Origin: a virus
Reading direction: 5' to 3' (one strand)
DNA: 20,993 bases
IMG/VR virus record: IMGVR_UViG_3300027621_000046
Coordinates: 1-20,993 of that record
The position numbers and the translations under genes were made by a program. Each line of letters starts with the position of its first letter. The stretch's first letter is position 1. This document shows positions 4,452-11,613 of this stretch, piece by piece. The notes beneath the pieces were generated by a model, which did no database searches, was not told where the DNA came from, and saw nothing but the letters and a program-made list of their open reading frames with translations.

Positions 4452-5549
4452 ATGGCAACCTCAACACTAGGGTCTGGAACAGTTGTTCTTGCGGGAACAA
4501 CATCAGGGACTACAACAGTCACAGCAACTGCTGTAGCTGGCACTACAACTCTTACGCTTCCAGCGGCTACAGATACATTGGTTGGTAAGGCTACAACCGA
4601 TACCCTGACTAATAAGACGCTAACAAGTGCAACTCTAACTGGTGTTGTAACTTTTGATGCTGGAACAGCAGCAGCCCCTGCCATTACCACTACAGGCGAC
4701 ACCAACACAGGTATCTTCTTCCCTGCCGCTGACACCATTGCTTTTTCTGAGGGTGGTGCGGAGGCTATGCGTATCGACTCCTCTGGTAATGTGGGGATTG
4801 GTACTACTTCGCCTTTAAACAAACTGGATGCCCGTGCCGCAAGTGCTGTTATTGCCAACTACCAAACCATCCAAGCATTCAGCACTGATTCGGCGGCTAT
4901 TGATTTAGGTGGTGGTATTGGTCTTGGTGGGTTTTATTCTACAACTTCTGCAATTGCAGTATTTGGCAATATTGTTGGACGCAAAGAAAACGCAACTGGT
5001 GGAAACTTTAGTGGATATTTAGCATTTGGAACTAACAACAACTCTACTGGTATTGTAGAACGTATGCGTATCGACTCCAGCGGTAACATTATATACACCC
5101 AACCTTCTTTAGCTTGTTATGTATGGACTGCGTTTAATCCAACAAATACATCTGGCACAATCACCAATGCACCCGCTACTGGAACTGCTTACGATACTGG
5201 GTTTGTGACAATGGTCAATTCATCTGGCACTCTTACCATTACTTTTGATATTGCTGGAAAATATCTTGTAAGCACAAATTTACAAACATCACACGCAAAT
5301 ACTTATACAAATGAACGCTCAACATTTACTTTGGGTGGAACGGCAACGGCAGCAACAGGAACACAAAACCCATCATTTTCTGGGATTGATTCTGTAGATG
5401 CAAATACAACTGGAACATATCCAATATATGTGTCTGCAACAGCGGCGCAAACAACAACAATATTGCCGACATACGAGTTAACTGGTAGTGGCACAACGGC
5501 GCAGCATACTTGTAGACCATCTGTAACTGTTCAATACTGCGGAGGATAA
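4452..5549 (+). CDS. Tail-fibre/tail-spike-like protein with C-terminal beta domain
   Basis: The product is 365 aa. The N-terminal ~70 residues are almost pure Thr/Ala/Val/Leu beta sequence including DTLTNKTLTSATLTG, a motif frequent in aquatic phage fibres. Two copies of MRIDSSGN occur at residues ~106 and ~205, the first followed by VGIGTTSP. That block commonly sits in phage and bacterial adhesins ahead of a C-terminal chaperone domain, but no such self-cleaving peptidase domain is visible. Residues ~221-365 form a separate beta-rich domain (TFDIAGKYLVSTNL) reminiscent of C1q/TNF-like jelly rolls, a possible receptor-binding head. The last codons (Cys-Gly-Gly) contain GGAGG, which is the ribosome binding site of the next gene. 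Fibre identity is well supported. The domain assignment is inference. Confidence 0.72.
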   Translation: MATSTLGSGTVVLAGTTSGTTTVTATAVAGTTTLTLPAATDTLVGKATTDTLTNKTLTSATLTGVVTFDAGTAAAPAITTTGDTNTGIFFPAADTIAFSEGGAEAMRIDSSGNVGIGTTSPLNKLDARAASAVIANYQTIQAFSTDSAAIDLGGGIGLGGFYSTTSAIAVFGNIVGRKENATGGNFSGYLAFGTNNNSTGIVERMRIDSSGNIIYTQPSLACYVWTAFNPTNTSGTITNAPATGTAYDTGFVTMVNSSGTLTITFDIAGKYLVSTNLQTSHANTYTNERSTFTLGGTATAATGTQNPSFSGIDSVDANTTGTYPIYVSATAAQTTTILPTYELTGSGTTAQHTCRPSVTVQYCGG

Positions 5550-5552
5550 ATA

Positions 5553-5783
5553 ATGTTATACGACTCAAACACACTTGCTCAATTTGAAATGCGTAAATTG
5601 CGTAATGTTTTTTTAAGAGCATCTGATTGGACTCAAATGGCTGATTCGCCTTTGACTTCCGAAAAGAAAACAGAGTGGTCAATATATCGACAATCACTTC
5701 GTGACTTGCCAAACAATAGCAATCCAACACTTGATGAAAATAAAAATCTTGTTGGTGTAATTTTTCCAACGCAACCGCAATAA
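5553..5783 (+). CDS. Small tail assembly chaperone-like protein
   Basis: The product is 76 aa. It carries DWTQMADSPL (residues 25-34) and YRQSLRDLP (45-53). This pairing matches the small phage tail assembly chaperone family (APC type, as I recall Pfam 16778), whose genes usually sit just after a fibre gene. A role in folding or attaching the preceding fibre is likely, though not proven for this family. A strong GGAGG at 5541-5545 lies 7 nt before the ATG, inside the end of the fibre gene, which couples the two. No membrane segment or signal peptide is seen. Confidence 0.75.
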   Translation: MLYDSNTLAQFEMRKLRNVFLRASDWTQMADSPLTSEKKTEWSIYRQSLRDLPNNSNPTLDENKNLVGVIFPTQPQ

Positions 5784-6524: not shown

Positions 6525-6578
6525 GCGTAAGCCGAGTTGAATGTCCTAGAACCGATAACGGCAGGAAAAGGAAGAAAT

Positions 6579-7363: not shown

Positions 7364-8317
7364 ATGGCAACCTCATTTTCCCCCAGTAATTCAGTTACTG
7401 TAACCACAGCAGAAAAATTCATCCCTGAAATTTGGAGTGATGAAATTGTAGCTGCCTACAAGAAAAACTTGGTTCTTGCGAACCTCATTATGAAGATGAA
7501 CTTCAAGGGCAAGAAGGGTGATGTAATTCACATTCCCGCACCTACCCGTGGTTCTGCTTCTGCTAAAGCCGCTGAAACAGCAGTCACCTTGATTGCCGCT
7601 ACAGAGTCTGAAGTTCAAGTTTCTATCAACAAGCATTACGAATACAGCCGTTTGATTGAAGATATTGTCGAAGCCCAAGCCTTGAACAGCTTGCGTAATT
7701 TTTACACTTCTGACGCTGGTTACGCTTTGGCTAAGCAGGTCGATACTGACTTGGTTCAGTTAGGTCGTTCTACCAATGGCGGTGCTGGTACAAACGTGTA
7801 TGCAACTGGTGCTTTTATTGGTGGTGATGGTACTACTGCTTATGTTGCCGCAAACAACAATGAGTCAGCATTGACCGATGCCGCTATTCGCCGCACCATT
7901 CAGCGTCTCGATGACACTGATACCCCAATGGATCAGCGTTTCTTTCTGATTCCTCCCTCAAGTCGCAACACTTTGATGGGTTTGGCTCGTTACACTGAAC
8001 AAGCCTTTGTTGGTGGTACAAACAGTACTATCCGCACTGGTGAAATCGGTAACTTGTATGGTATCCCTGTCTTTGTATCGTCTAACTGCGACACAGGTTC
8101 AGGCACTAATAACCCACGGGTTTGCTTGATGGGTCACAAGGACTCACTGGTTTTGGTTGAACAAATGGCTATTCGCTCACAAGTTCAGTACCAACAGCCC
8201 TACCTTGCAACTCTGTACACAGCGGATACGTTGTATGGAGTGCAAATTCTGCGTAATGCAGCAAGCACTGGTGCGGCTAAGTCTGCATCTATGTTTGCTT
8301 TGTTGGTTCCTGCCTAA
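7364..8317 (+). CDS. Major capsid protein
   Basis: The product is 317 aa. The segments PEIWSDEIVAAYKKNLVLAN (residues 21-40) and FKGKKGDVIHIPAP (47-60) are typical of the N-terminal arm and early strands of HK97-fold coat proteins in aquatic podoviruses. A central Gly/Asn/Thr-rich stretch (GGAGTNVYATGAFIGGDG) could be a surface loop. The C-terminal half includes a DTPMDQRFFLIPP strand, often seen in this family. GGAG lies about ten bases upstream of the ATG. The gene follows the scaffold and ends just before a strong terminator, fitting the most abundant structural product. No protease gene is seen nearby, so maturation cleavage is not indicated. Confidence 0.92.
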   Translation: MATSFSPSNSVTVTTAEKFIPEIWSDEIVAAYKKNLVLANLIMKMNFKGKKGDVIHIPAPTRGSASAKAAETAVTLIAATESEVQVSINKHYEYSRLIEDIVEAQALNSLRNFYTSDAGYALAKQVDTDLVQLGRSTNGGAGTNVYATGAFIGGDGTTAYVAANNNESALTDAAIRRTIQRLDDTDTPMDQRFFLIPPSSRNTLMGLARYTEQAFVGGTNSTIRTGEIGNLYGIPVFVSSNCDTGSGTNNPRVCLMGHKDSLVLVEQMAIRSQVQYQQPYLATLYTADTLYGVQILRNAASTGAAKSASMFALLVPA

Positions 8318-8328
8318 TTGCAGTTGCG

Positions 8329-8359
8329 CCCCCTGCCCTAGTGGTGGGGGGACTTTTTT
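8329..8359 (+). terminator. Intrinsic terminator after the major capsid gene
   Basis: A nine-pair stem (8329-8337 with 8343-8351, two G-U pairs) closes a CTAGT loop (8338-8342). Two bases then lead into six T residues (8354-8359). It lies 11 nt after the capsid stop and before the ribosome binding site of the next gene, so it would end or reduce transcription from the capsid gene. Confidence 0.9.
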
Positions 8360-8381
8360 AACCTAATTAGGAGAAACAAAA

Positions 8382-8705
8382 ATGGCAGCAGCAACAGCAG
8401 TTGTTTTAAACAGAGACAACGATTCTTTTCGGGGTTTGTTCAGTGATACATGGACAGTTACTTGCACTTTGGATTCTGCATCTGTTGCAGACCAAGCCGC
8501 TGGTACTGATACTGTGACCATTTCTGGCGTTGCCCTTGGCGATATGGTTATTGGTATGTCGGCTGGTGTAGATGAGGCGGGTTTAGTTCGCCGTGCTTAC
8601 GTTTCAGCGGCAAACACAGTGACTATTGCAACAACTAATACAACTGGTGGGTCTGTTAATTTAGCATCCACTACTGTTAAATTGGTTATTGCTCGAATGG
8701 TGTAA
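8382..8705 (+). CDS. Small beta-rich protein, candidate capsid decoration protein
   Basis: The product is 107 aa, rich in Thr, Val, Ala and Ser, with alternating strand patterns (TWTVTCTLDSASVADQAAG, TVTISGVALGDMVIGMS, NTVTIATTNTTGG). There is no signal peptide or membrane segment. Size, composition and position directly after the capsid gene fit a decoration or head-stabilising protein, but no family motif proves it. A strong AGGAG lies 5' of the ATG. Terminator-like hairpins flank the gene on both sides, so it may be its own transcript or be subject to graded read-through. Confidence 0.75.
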   Translation: MAAATAVVLNRDNDSFRGLFSDTWTVTCTLDSASVADQAAGTDTVTISGVALGDMVIGMSAGVDEAGLVRRAYVSAANTVTIATTNTTGGSVNLASTTVKLVIARMV

Positions 8706-8710
8706 AGATT

Positions 8711-8730
8711 GGGGGGCTAGTCCCCCCTTT
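8711..8730 (+). terminator. G/C hairpin, probable weak intrinsic terminator
   Basis: Six G (8711-8716) pair perfectly with six C (8722-8727) around a CTAGT loop (8717-8721), followed by TTT then CTC. The T tract is short, so termination may be partial. The loop is identical to that of the terminator at 8329-8359. Confidence 0.75.
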
Positions 8731-8746
8731 CTCATTTAAGGGTTTT

Positions 8747-8959
8747 ATGGCTACTTTTCGTTGTCTTCAAACAGGTAACACTGTGAGTTTTACATACCAG
8801 CACGACATTGACTCTATGAGGGGTCATCAGGGATATGTGAGAGTAGACGAACCAGAAGTAACCATAGAATCAGAAGTTAGAACAGATACCGCATTTCGTG
8901 CGCCTGTCATTCCAACAATTAAGCGTATGGGAAGACCCCGAAAGGTAGCAAATGGCTGA
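8747..8959 (+). CDS. Small hypothetical phage protein
   Basis: The product is 70 aa. It begins MATFRCLQTGNTVSFTYQHD and ends in a basic tail, KRMGRPRKVANG. The C-terminal GRPRK is AT-hook-like in appearance, but a single short motif does not establish DNA binding. It could equally be a small head-completion or minor structural protein given its place between capsid and tail genes. AAGGG stands about 5 nt before the ATG. The end overlaps the next gene by 8 nt. Confidence 0.7.
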   Translation: MATFRCLQTGNTVSFTYQHDIDSMRGHQGYVRVDEPEVTIESEVRTDTAFRAPVIPTIKRMGRPRKVANG

Positions 8960-9155
8960 AATTGACGCAAGAGATTTTGGTAGATTAGAGGCTCAAGTTG
9001 ATTCTCTACAACTTCAAGTATCTCAATTGAGTACAGATGTAAAAGCATTGCTTGAACTTGCCAATAAAGGCAAGGGTGGGATTTGGATTGGTATGACTAT
9101 CGCTTCATTTATGGGCGGTGTGATTACTTTTTGTGCTGATCGACTGTGGAAATAA
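8952..9155 (+). CDS. Coiled-coil protein with C-terminal membrane segment
   Basis: The product is 67 aa. Residues ~4-38 form a heptad-like coiled coil (LEAQVDSLQLQVSQLSTDVK). A lysine/glycine linker (NKGKGG) and one hydrophobic helix, IWIGMTIASFMGGVITF (about 44-60), follow. The protein should be anchored in the inner membrane. Small phage proteins of this plan are often listed as holin-like or lysis-associated, but this one lies far from the lysis module. A role in virion or membrane assembly is also possible. AAAGG precedes the ATG inside the upstream gene. Confidence 0.68.
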   Translation: MAEIDARDFGRLEAQVDSLQLQVSQLSTDVKALLELANKGKGGIWIGMTIASFMGGVITFCADRLWK

Positions 9156-9165
9156 GGAGAACACT

Positions 9166-9336
9166 ATGTACGGAAAAATGATGGGTGGTAAGGCTAAAGA
9201 GACTACAAGCAAGGGCAAGAAAAAGGGCGTACCTGTGACCATTATGGTTGCGGTTGGTAAGCCAAAGATGCCTATGCCTATGAAGGGTAGCAGGACTGCT
9301 ACCAACATGATGAAGAAATCCTCAAGAGGTAAATAA
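9166..9336 (+). CDS. Small basic lysine/methionine-rich protein
   Basis: The product is 56 aa with 13 Lys, many Met and Gly and few acidic residues. A short hydrophobic core, GVPVTIMVAVGKPKMPMPMK, separates basic ends. The ATG at 9166 was chosen because AGGAG at 9155-9159 fits it. An in-frame GTG at 9133 lies inside the upstream gene. It is the first of six lysine-rich small genes in this stretch. Role unknown. Binding to packaged nucleic acid is a reasonable hypothesis from charge alone. Confidence 0.65.
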   Translation: MYGKMMGGKAKETTSKGKKKGVPVTIMVAVGKPKMPMPMKGSRTATNMMKKSSRGK

Positions 9337-9620
9337 TGTCAGCCCTAACCACTCCCGTCACTCTATTGAGTGCTGTTGTCGCTACAGGTGCTTCTAAATC
9401 TGTACAAGCAGATGCTGGACAACCCGCATTCTTGCAAGTTAGTGGCATTACAACCGCAACTGTTGCATTCCAAGGTAGCTTGGATGGGACAACCTTTGCC
9501 ACAATTGGTACTGCTTTGACCGCTGATGGCATTGTCACCATAGCCAATGCTCCTAAGTATTTGCGGGCAAACTGCACTGCTTACACCTCTGGAACTATCA
9601 CAGCTAAAGTATTGTATTAA
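9336..9620 (+). CDS. Small beta-sandwich-like virion protein
   Basis: The product is 94 aa, nearly free of charge and rich in Ala, Thr and Val. ASKSVQADAGQPAFLQVSG, TATVAFQGSLDGTTF and LTADGIVTI are followed by KYLRANCTAYTSGTITAKV. This succession of short strands (substance-like start, SLDGT turn, YLRAN...SGTIT end) is common in small phage surface or head-fibre proteins with a beta-sandwich fold. The start overlaps the previous stop (TAATG). Function in capsid decoration is likely but unproved. Confidence 0.72.
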   Translation: MSALTTPVTLLSAVVATGASKSVQADAGQPAFLQVSGITTATVAFQGSLDGTTFATIGTALTADGIVTIANAPKYLRANCTAYTSGTITAKVLY

Positions 9621-9621
9621 C

Positions 9622-9771
9622 ATGAAAAAGACTAAAGCACAAGCCAAGATTAGCAAGGTAATGACTGAGTTTGGCAAGGGTAAGTTGACATCCAACAAAA
9701 AGGTTGTCAAAGACCCAAAGCAAGCGATGGCAATAGCTTTATCTGAAGCTGGTAAGGCTAAGAAAAAATGA
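9622..9771 (+). CDS. Small lysine-rich protein (DUF6496-like)
   Basis: The product is 49 aa, of which 15 are lysine. The core VMTEFGKGKLTSNKKVVKDP and the end KQAMAIALSEAGKAKKK match, from memory, a family of unknown function (DUF6496). It follows the preceding stop by one base and lacks a clear Shine-Dalgarno, so it is probably translated by coupling. The pattern of a basic N-terminus plus an Ala/Leu helix ending in a lysine run suggests nucleic-acid or capsid-interior contact. No experiment on the family is known to me. Confidence 0.7.
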   Translation: MKKTKAQAKISKVMTEFGKGKLTSNKKVVKDPKQAMAIALSEAGKAKKK

Positions 9772-9947
9772 AAACCAAATCCAAGGTCAACCAAGCAGGG
9801 GTTTACACCAAACCCACCATGCGAAAAGCCTTGTTTGAGAAGATCAAAGCAGGGTCATCAGGTGGGGATTCTGGTGAGTGGTCAGCAAGAAAAGCACAAT
9901 TGCTTGCCAAAGAGTACAAAGCCAAAGGCGGGGGTTACAAGACATGA
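9768..9947 (+). CDS. Small basic protein of conserved phage type
   Basis: The product is 59 aa. KPTMRKALFEKIKAGSSGG is followed by GEWSARKAQLLAKEYKAKGG, a pattern I recognise from other aquatic phage genomes, though without a named function. It has 12 Lys and 2 Arg. The start overlaps the previous stop (ATGA) and its own stop overlaps the next start in the same way. The tight chain of overlaps and the conserved-looking core support a true gene despite its short length. Confidence 0.72.
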   Translation: MKTKSKVNQAGVYTKPTMRKALFEKIKAGSSGGDSGEWSARKAQLLAKEYKAKGGGYKT

Positions 9948-10096
9948 GCAAAGACAAGCCACATTATTTGCCTGATGGCAAGCTGTACAAGGGTGATACT
10001 CACAAGGTGGGTTCAACTTTGATGACGGGTGCAAAGCATTCTGCATCTAGCAAGGTCTTGACGCACACACCATCTAAGCCAAAGGCTAAGAAGTGA
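9944..10096 (+). CDS. Small basic protein, unknown function
   Basis: The product is 50 aa. It starts MSKDKPHYLPDGKLYKGDTHK and continues GSTLMTGAKHSASSKV before a lysine/proline tail (KPKAKK). It has eleven Lys and several His. The ATG at 9944 overlaps the upstream stop (ATGA). Longer in-frame starts would run into the preceding gene. It has no membrane segment. It shares the basic tail and glycine/serine-rich middle of its neighbours, but no sequence repeat links them. Confidence 0.68.
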   Translation: MSKDKPHYLPDGKLYKGDTHKVGSTLMTGAKHSASSKVLTHTPSKPKAKK

Positions 10097-10326
10097 AAGA
10101 CCCACAACAATCTCTCAAGGATTGGGGTAAGCAGAAGTGGCGTACCAAGTCAGGTAAACCCTCATCCCAGACGGGTGAGAGGTATCTGCCAGAGGCGGCA
10201 ATTAAGTCTTTGAGTGCTGCTGAGTATGCGGCAACTACCAAAGCCAAGCGCAAAGGTACTGCATCTGGTAAACAGTTTGTTGCCCAACCAAAGAGCATTG
10301 CAAAGAAAACGTCAAAGTTTAGATGA
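10093..10326 (+). CDS. Small basic protein (DUF5872-like), GTG start
   Basis: The product is 77 aa. SLKDWGKQKWRTKSGKPSSQ and TGERYLPEAAIKSLSAAEYA, followed by a basic tail (QPKSIAKKTSKFR), match a family I remember as DUF5872, found in phages and some large viruses. GTG at 10093 overlaps the previous stop (GTGA) and begins VKDPQQ. The two aromatic/basic patches (DWGKQKWR) and the GERYLP motif suggest a folded domain, not just a charged tail. Function unknown. Confidence 0.75.
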   Translation: MKDPQQSLKDWGKQKWRTKSGKPSSQTGERYLPEAAIKSLSAAEYAATTKAKRKGTASGKQFVAQPKSIAKKTSKFR

Positions 10327-10334
10327 GGTAAAAG

Positions 10335-10637
10335 ATGAAAACACCCACTTGGCAAACAAAAGCTGGTCAAAATCCAAAAGGCGGCTTGAATGCCAAGGGC
10401 AGAGCGTCTTATAATGCAGAAACTGGTGGTAATCTGAAGCCGCCAGTAAAGTCGGGGGATAACCCTCGCAGAGCAAGTTTCTTGGCTCGTATGGGCAGCA
10501 ATGCTGGTGCAGAGTACAAGGATGGTGAACCAACAAGACTGCTTCTTTCGCTCAAGGCATGGGGTGCAACCTCAAAGGCTGACGCAAAGGCAAAAGCTAA
10601 AGCTATATCCGCAAGGAACAAGGCAAAAGCGAAATGA
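10335..10637 (+). CDS. Small basic protein (DUF6321-like)
   Basis: The product is 100 aa. NPKGGLNAKGRASYNAETGG, NLKPPVKSGDNPRRASFLAR and GEPTRLLLSLKAWGA are the recognisable core of a family I recall as DUF6321. The last 25 residues are a Lys/Ala repeat (KADAKAKAKAISARNKAKAK). Such K/A tails resemble those of bacterial histone-like proteins, but the core is distinct. GAGG at 10325-10328 overlaps the previous stop and serves the ATG. Best reading: small virion or DNA-associated protein of unknown role. Confidence 0.77.
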   Translation: MKTPTWQTKAGQNPKGGLNAKGRASYNAETGGNLKPPVKSGDNPRRASFLARMGSNAGAEYKDGEPTRLLLSLKAWGATSKADAKAKAKAISARNKAKAK

Positions 10638-10969
10638 GAGCATTATCAGTTGGAGTTAGTCCCACAGCGGCAGTAGACACTACAGTCTATACCTGTCCTA
10701 GAGGCTATTACTCAAAATTTACTGTAATGTATATCCACAACACTGGTGGCTCTACCAAGCATATAACTGTTCAGTGGTTTGACTCAAGTGCTAACTCTAC
10801 GCTTGATATATTGACTGCTCTTGATTTCAGTACAAAAGAATATTTGCAGTTTGATGGTAATGCCTATATTGTTTTTGAAGAAGGCGATAAGTTAAAAATT
10901 ACAACACAATCTGCAAGCACATTTAGTTTTATAGCCACATTTGAAGAAGAAGGGTTGACTAGAACATGA
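10634..10969 (+). CDS. Small beta-rich structural protein
   Basis: The product is 111 aa. Segments TVYTCPRGYYSKFTVMYIHN, GGSTKHITVQWFDSSANST and KEYLQFDGNAYIVFEEGDKL alternate strands and turns, as in small phage structural proteins of aquatic podoviruses and myoviruses. No signal or membrane segment is seen. It overlaps both neighbours by ATGA. It directly precedes the adaptor gene, so it may be a head-completion or head-surface protein. The exact role cannot be read from the sequence. Confidence 0.75.
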   Translation: MRALSVGVSPTAAVDTTVYTCPRGYYSKFTVMYIHNTGGSTKHITVQWFDSSANSTLDILTALDFSTKEYLQFDGNAYIVFEEGDKLKITTQSASTFSFIATFEEEGLTRT

Positions 10970-11613
10970 CCTACCTTGAACTTATCAACGATGTTCTGAT
11001 TCGACTCAGAGAACCTGTCGTTACCGCAAACAATCAAACTGCCTATTCAACACTGATTGGCAAGTTTGTCAATGATGCAAAACGTCAGATTGAAGATGCT
11101 TTTTCTTGGAATGTTTTGGGTCAGACAATTACTGTTACCACTGCATCATCTACAGCATCTTATTCTTTAACAGGTGCTGGTCAGAAGTTTCAAGTCATGG
11201 ATGTAATCAATACCACAAGTAATGTTGGACTCATAAACATCACTTTTGTGGACATGAATCGCAAGTTAAACTTTACGCCACTTGTCAATTCAATACCCAC
11301 AGAATTTGCTTTTGATGGTGTTGATGCAAGCTACGACACTAAGGTAAATCTGTACCCAATACCTGATGGTGTATATACGATCAAGTTTGCCCTAACAGTG
11401 CCACAAGCAACCTTGTCATCAGATGTAACTGTTGTATCTGTACCTGATGTACTAGTGGCTCAGAATGCTTATGCAAGGGCTTTGATAGAACGTGGTGAAG
11501 ATGGTGGTACTTCATCATCAGAAGCATTCTTGCTTTACAAGGCTATGTTGTCTGACCACATTGCTTTGGAAAGCACTCGCTATCCTGAGAACCAAGAATT
11601 TGTACCCGTATGA
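10966..11613 (+). CDS. Head-tail adaptor / tail tubular protein A-like
   Basis: The product is 215 aa. An N-terminal helical part (LELINDVLIRLREP, then FVNDAKRQIEDAFSWNVLGQ) leads into a beta domain (TVTTASSTASYSLTG; KVNLYPIPDGVYTIKFALTV). Helices then return (AYARALIERGEDGG, ALESTRYPENQEF). This helix-beta-helix plan, the length and the order before a nozzle-like protein match podovirus adaptors (T7 gp11 or P22 gp4 type), which form the ring below the portal. ATGA overlaps tie it to both neighbours. Confidence is good for the role and moderate for the exact family. Confidence 0.8.
   Translation: MTYLELINDVLIRLREPVVTANNQTAYSTLIGKFVNDAKRQIEDAFSWNVLGQTITVTTASSTASYSLTGAGQKFQVMDVINTTSNVGLINITFVDMNRKLNFTPLVNSIPTEFAFDGVDASYDTKVNLYPIPDGVYTIKFALTVPQATLSSDVTVVSVPDVLVAQNAYARALIERGEDGGTSSSEAFLLYKAMLSDHIALESTRYPENQEFVPV

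Follow-up and report, generated by a model that had tools for sequence, protein, structure and literature searches.

Small lysine-rich genes between the capsid and tail genes of a podovirus include a split DUF5872-type pair and a DUF6321 protein

The closest described counterparts of the genes considered here are the internal head proteins IPI, IPII, and IPIII of phage T4. In both cases, a tailed phage produces a group of small basic proteins together with the products of its head genes, and the proteins described here, designated K1–K6, would likewise sit in the head with the DNA; the two sets have no known sequence relation. The T4 prohead protease gp21 cleaves after the motif L/I-X-E (PMC9026906). 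When the K1–K6 families were inspected for a conserved N-terminal L/I-X-E targeting peptide of the T4 internal-head type, none was found. Another point of comparison is cluster GC119 (phrog_727) of the T4-like cyanophages, in which a DUF6321 domain stands C-terminally after lysine-rich modules. GC119 joins its modules into a single chain several hundred residues long, whereas the locus studied here has one gene per module, with K6 representing the full DUF6321 domain. A further related family, DUF5872 (PF19197), has been recorded for the alga virus CpV-BQ1 (PMC12085832) and appears as an annotation in Azospirillum. Literature searches for a published function of DUF6321, DUF5872, or DUF6496 gave one table entry, and DUF6321 was named in no paper found; the phage records searched included 497 with relatives of DUF6321.

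The window, i.e., the whole stretch of DNA analyzed, is a record of 20,993 bases from an uncultured virus of microbes, carrying terminase, portal, tail-fibre-type, major head, tail, spanin, and endolysin genes, all on the + strand. Its portal and tail families place the virus among the podoviruses, and its capsid protein shares 30–34% identity with the capsid proteins of freshwater cyanopodoviruses. The coordinates of the main features are summarized in Table 1. As the preliminary description of this DNA had claimed, six genes of 49–100 aa at positions 9166–10637 are rich in lysine (15–31%; net charge +8 to +15) and sit between the capsid and tail genes, and all six open reading frames (ORFs) were recovered at the starts assigned to them. 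Its account of the junctions as mostly ATGA or GTGA overlaps was also accurate: ATGA joins K2/K3, K3/K4, and K6/B2, and GTGA joins K4/K5, while K5/K6 are separated by an 8-base gap and K1/B1 meet at TAATG. The two small genes said to interrupt the run (B1) and to follow it (B2) are both present, and their products are near neutral or slightly acidic. A relative of B2 adjoins K3 in HMO-2011 (L082:5535-5873, E = 6.4e-10). Beyond the interval, the gene at 11610 encodes a tail/virion-type protein.

Table 1. Positions and properties of the lysine-rich genes, their small neighbors, and the bordering capsid and tail genes
Feature	Position	Strand	Properties
Major head (capsid) protein	7364..8317	+	phrog_267 major head protein, E 1.4e-49
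K1	9166..9336	+	56 aa, K 23%, net +14; no Pfam/PHROG match
B1	9336..9620	+	94 aa, small neutral protein, optional; dN/dS 0.11
K2	9622..9771	+	49 aa, K 31%, net +12; DUF6496; phrog_2423
K3	9768..9947	+	59 aa, K 20%, net +10; phrog_17747, E 3e-34
K4	9944..10096	+	50 aa, K 22%, net +8; contains lysine and histidine; between K3 and K5
K5	10093..10326	+	77 aa, GTG start, K 19%, net +14; phrog_14910, E 2e-37
K6	10335..10637	+	100 aa, K 15%, net +15; DUF6321
B2	10634..10969	+	111 aa, slightly acidic; phrog_1276, E 7.7e-4
Tail protein, adaptor-type (closes the interval)	10966..11613	+	phrog_10775 tail, E 5.2e-11

K1–K6 are real genes under purifying selection. A filter for lysine content and charge (ORFs of ≥ 45 aa, lysine ≥ 15%, net charge/length ≥ 0.145) was passed by six of the 74 ORFs in the window, compared with none in 20 shuffled windows. 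The dN/dS values of K1–K6, calculated with up to 39 relatives, were 0.26, 0.17, 0.05, 0.14, 0.10, and 0.11, respectively, comparable with the capsid gene (0.13) and the tail gene (0.15); with a median dS close to 1 or higher in most cases, these values are approximate. The filter result and the low dN/dS together argue that the run did not arise by chance.

Several features of the surrounding sequence were also observed. Strong terminator-like hairpins occur at 8329–8351, after the capsid gene, and at 8711–8727, after the gene at 8382, and the region 8200–11100 contains 11 terminator-like sites versus 2.5 expected. Because the lysine-rich run is downstream of both hairpins, its expression may be separate from that of the capsid gene. 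Immediately upstream of K1, positions 8952–9155 encode a 67-aa protein that begins with a coiled-coil-like stretch and probably has a membrane helix at its C-terminus; it is holin-like by appearance only. Genes of the tail-fibre and tail-fibre-assembly types (phrog_18345 and phrog_4912; 4452–5783) precede the capsid gene and lie between the portal gene and the gene at 6537, which occupies the usual scaffold position; this placement of fibre genes is unusual.

Three of the proteins had been likened to DUF6496, DUF5872, and DUF6321. This was correct for K2 and K6, but the DUF5872 likeness is shared between two genes and falls below the Pfam cut-off. K6 matched DUF6321 (PF19846) with 80.4 bits against a cut-off of 28.5, over positions 2–72 of the 72 in the profile; it lacks the usual cysteines of the FCARM motif and the C-terminus, having FLARM and AWG. 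K2 matched DUF6496 (PF20106) marginally, with 25.3 bits against a cut-off of 24, and its likeness to that family consists of this profile match just over the cut-off. None of the window proteins matched DUF5872 (cut-off 27.5 bits) directly, with no hit for K3 or K5 at E ≤ 10, and the closest K3–K5 relative (L444) reached 26.4 bits, under the cut-off. DUF5872 spans 116 positions, of which 1–52 are matched by gp70 of Roseobacter phage CRP-207 and 55–112 by gene 22 of P-SCSP2; the families built from these first-half and second-half proteins are referred to as D1 and D2. In profile comparisons, K3 matched D1 (P = 1.9e-4) and K5 matched D2 (P = 1.7e-3), i.e., the first and second halves in order, whereas the 18 other pairs all had P ≥ 0.095. 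An earlier comparison with just two DUF5872 second-half sequences found nothing; the full sets gave the matches. Furthermore, K3 and K5 are fused in some phages and bacteria, and such fusions align along DUF5872 itself, at positions 2–107 in Dehalococcoidia (E = 0.011) and 2–71 in Pseudoroseomonas (E = 1.1e-5). Based on these profile matches and aligned fusions, K3 and K5 are distant homologues of the N- and C-terminal halves of DUF5872, i.e., a split and diverged protein of that type. The window version is divided between two genes and is related to DUF5872 at the profile level alone, and K3–K5 is a relative of this family, not a filed member. K3–K5 and D1–D2 were found in the same locus in none of 506 loci.

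The preliminary description had made its case depend on co-occurrence in relatives, and both co-occurrence and gene order proved to be strongly conserved. The order MCP-HDEC-Z1-HOL-K1-B1-K2-K3-K4-K5-K6-B2-tail was kept in 91 of the 96 loci that spanned the interval from the capsid gene to the tail gene, and in the other five only the HOL gene had moved. Dereplicating these loci at 97% capsid identity left 38, in which K6 was present in 38, K1 in 36, K2 in 31, B2 in 28, B1 in 22, K4 in 14, and K3 and K5 in 13 each; these frequencies are not population values because the loci were fetched using K2, K4, K5, and K6 as queries. K3 and K5 were both present in 13 of these loci, both absent from 25, and never apart (Fisher p = 1.8e-10), and this pairing is little affected by the choice of query genes. 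Similarly, K3 was accompanied by K5 in 206 of 206 cases among the 506 loci, while 14 loci had K5 without K3, many of these being close to the end of a contig. In all 81 loci of a first scan, K3 preceded K5 in the same orientation; these include Pelagibacter phage Hodr, in which K3–K5 form a single ORF. Relatives of K3 and of K5 were each found in 17 phage records, with 16 records common to both sets, and these records span Pelagibacter, Roseobacter, SAR116, and OM43 phages. Cultured carriers include Roseobacter phage CRP-13, Methylophilales phage MEP401, and Pelagibacter phage HTVC033P. The idea of a six-gene cassette therefore stands for the genes and their order but not for its unity: K1 and K6 form a core, K3–K5 are inseparable, and K2 and K4 are optional. 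One obligatory six-gene complex is rejected, since K2, K4, and K3–K5 can all be missing. In CRP-207 (L095:4506-5066), a relative of K4 follows both DUF5872 halves, so K4 accompanies the D1–D2 version of the pair too.

A trio consisting of the DUF5872 halves and DUF6321 recurs beside the head or packaging genes of unrelated phages. In P-SCSP2, it consists of D1, D2, and DUF6321; of 80 loci retrieved using gene 22 of this phage, 61 had all three side by side. In P-SCSP2 and HTVC022P, the trio, or DUF6321 alone, separates the scaffold gene from the capsid gene; it is located between the two terminase genes in S-SM1, the S-P4 region, S-CREM1, S-CREM2, and S-SZBM1, and immediately before the terminase gene in MEP401. 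In several marine podoviruses, in contrast, the K3–K5 pair lies near lysis genes, not head genes. While Hodr carries K3–K5 in one ORF, SAR11 contigs carry K5–K3 in one ORF, and fusions in these two orders indicate that the two halves work as one unit.

In the T4-like cyanophages, the GC119 chain adjoins the terminase genes and combines a D1-like module, further lysine-rich modules, and the C-terminal DUF6321. The modules of this protein (L090:2657-4246, L099:4759-6246, L107, L121, and L135) contain lysine and cysteine, and their number and order vary between phages. A glutamate immediately precedes 59 of the 71 starts of four module types, compared with 7.6% glutamate among all residues, but none of the 17 starts of a fifth type. 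Glutamate at the module borders is as expected for prohead-protease sites; it was observed in this chain protein only. Some of the border motifs fit L/I-X-E (INE, LNE, and IAE) and others do not (TNE, QNE, and QME), so prohead processing is a lead and not a result. The GC119 of S-SM1 alone has seven cleavage-like motif matches versus 2.5 expected in shuffles, which is supportive but weak, and a matching site was not found in the S-SM1 capsid precursor, which likewise leaves the protease idea as a lead. In HMO-2011 (L082:5879-6238), the K3 domain carries an N-terminal extension, YGEKKGEQVFYAAANKG, that resembles the first module of the chain protein (YGxRDKEVMYATANKLA).

Published virion data bear on DUF6321. 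The protein gp137 of S-CREM2, which carries this domain (40.8 bits), was found in purified virions with four unique peptides and 4.1% coverage (PMC10665884 Table 3), and these peptides may fall outside its C-terminal DUF6321 part. Its basic neighbor gp136 (17% lysine, net charge +23) was also found in virions, with eight peptides and 24.1% coverage (PMC10665884 Table 3). The DUF6321 protein SSZBM1_192 is absent from the list of 30 virion proteins of S-SZBM1 (PMC9146016). The GC119 protein of S-P4 was annotated by its depositors as "structural protein." Cyanophage P-SS2, for which peptide counts per gene exist, encodes neither domain, and small head proteins are not reported in the cryo-EM paper on P-SCSP1u, a structure paper without a proteome. 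AlphaFold2 predicted compact helical folds for K5 (pLDDT 89.9, pTM 0.71, 22 sequences) and K6 (pLDDT 92.4, pTM 0.76, 17 sequences), although this high confidence may be optimistic given the shallow alignments. In a fold search of the two models against solved structures, there was no match below E = 7 and no DNA-binding fold was identified, and a sequence search of the Protein Data Bank returned nothing for K6. For K5, it returned only 13-residue matches to the designed "Cake" proteins, which were set aside.

The relatives of K3–K5 extend to bacterial chromosomes. In four bacterial isolates, Aureimonas among them, the K3–K5 protein has a Rho_N-type domain at its end (E = 1.3e-8, 1.1e-4, 0.0016, and 0.099). 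In SAR11 single-cell contigs, the K5–K3 fusion, 138 aa in most of them, adjoins a short-chain dehydrogenase gene and, in several, a TspO/MBR gene; upstream of it are genes for DUF1365, a cyclopropane-fatty-acid-synthase-type enzyme, and DUF3833. The fusion is encoded at L437:7986-8402 and also in L423, L429, L430, L432, L433, L435, L438, and L440. The DUF1365 protein UfaO is encoded in the RSP1087-1091 operon of Rhodobacter, which was studied in chrR-deleted cells (PMC7380195). Judged by its gene content, the SAR11 cluster may represent photo-oxidative stress genes or a singlet-oxygen regulon. DUF6496 and DUF6321 were present in few of the K3–K5-bearing bacterial genomes in which they were sought, so the bacterial link is one of K3–K5 alone. 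The chromosomal relatives in SAR11 and other bacteria indicate that these domains also serve cells and that the families are not virion-specific.

The explanation that we favor, tentatively and with somewhat less than even confidence, is that K1–K6 are DNA-binding proteins, most likely packaged in the head. They would be made late as compact, positively charged proteins that bind phage DNA, with K3 and K5 acting as one split DUF5872-type unit beside K6. They would enter or line the prohead, where they would neutralize and organize (condense or shield) the packaged DNA, as a counterpart of the basic T4 internal head proteins, and they would remain inside the head with this DNA and might be delivered together with it. 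The proposal of DNA-condensing internal head proteins in the preliminary description thus finds indirect support: the charge, purifying selection, K3/K5 pairing, fusions, and Rho_N domains all favor it, as do the trio beside head and packaging genes, the virion detection of S-CREM2 gp137 and gp136, and the glutamate borders. It is weakened by the absence of SSZBM1_192 from its virion list and the low coverage of gp137, by the K3–K5 pairs near lysis genes and the cellular relatives, and by the fifth module type and the fold search. The main rival is protection of DNA in the cell, in which the virus would have copied K3–K5 from a cellular protein of the photo-oxidative or general stress response, to guard or organize nucleic acid late in infection, in the infected cell and not in the virion. 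We consider this unlikely, though it draws on the stress-like neighbors of the SAR11 fusion and the UfaO precedent (PMC7380195), on the Rho_N fusions in other bacteria, and on the placement near lysis genes; the DUF6321 protein in S-CREM2 virions opposes it, as does the fact that several phage groups repeatedly place these genes next to those for the head or packaging, and the stress role of the SAR11 cluster is read from gene content alone.

The charge might instead bind the scaffold or the inner capsid wall, making the proteins head-assembly factors such as core, capsid-lining, or scaffold-helper proteins. The trio between scaffold and capsid genes, the near-constancy of K1 and K6 in the lineage, and the compact predicted folds are consistent with this, but most relatives that keep all the neighboring head genes lack K3–K5, which are thus not needed for that capsid, and the same families occur with unrelated capsids and in bacterial chromosomes, so that we regard this role as improbable. 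More improbable still, it seems, is a regulatory role in RNA binding or host takeover, with the proteins either produced late or injected when infection begins: the bacterial relatives do have a Rho_N-type domain, and T4 packages into its head proteins that target the host, among them Alt and IPI (PMC9026906), yet no enzymatic or regulator family was matched and the association is with late structural genes. There is very little likelihood that these are unlinked selfish or mobile small genes that have gathered where the late region tolerates insertions. In its favor, K2, K4, and B1 are optional and come and go, but the strong purifying selection, the order and K3–K5 pairing, which exceed chance, the fusions in both orders, and the recurrence of the trio in unrelated phages make it hard to sustain. 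A broader speculation, which we consider quite unlikely, is that the split DUF5872, DUF6321, and their companions constitute a portable nucleic-acid-protection kit that passes between unrelated phages and has a core shared with bacterial proteins of photo-oxidative or general stress; wrapped around the viral genome, it would shield the DNA in sunlit water, and T4-like cyanophages would carry it as a single chain that is cut up in the prohead.

Hundreds of phage records from aquatic habitats contain these families, which have no published function. If the K-type families pack or protect phage DNA, a role would be assigned to much viral dark matter of aquatic habitats. The strict pairing of K3 and K5 defines a testable two-protein unit, and through the SAR11 relative this pair is tied to a gene on the chromosome of hosts that abound in the sea.
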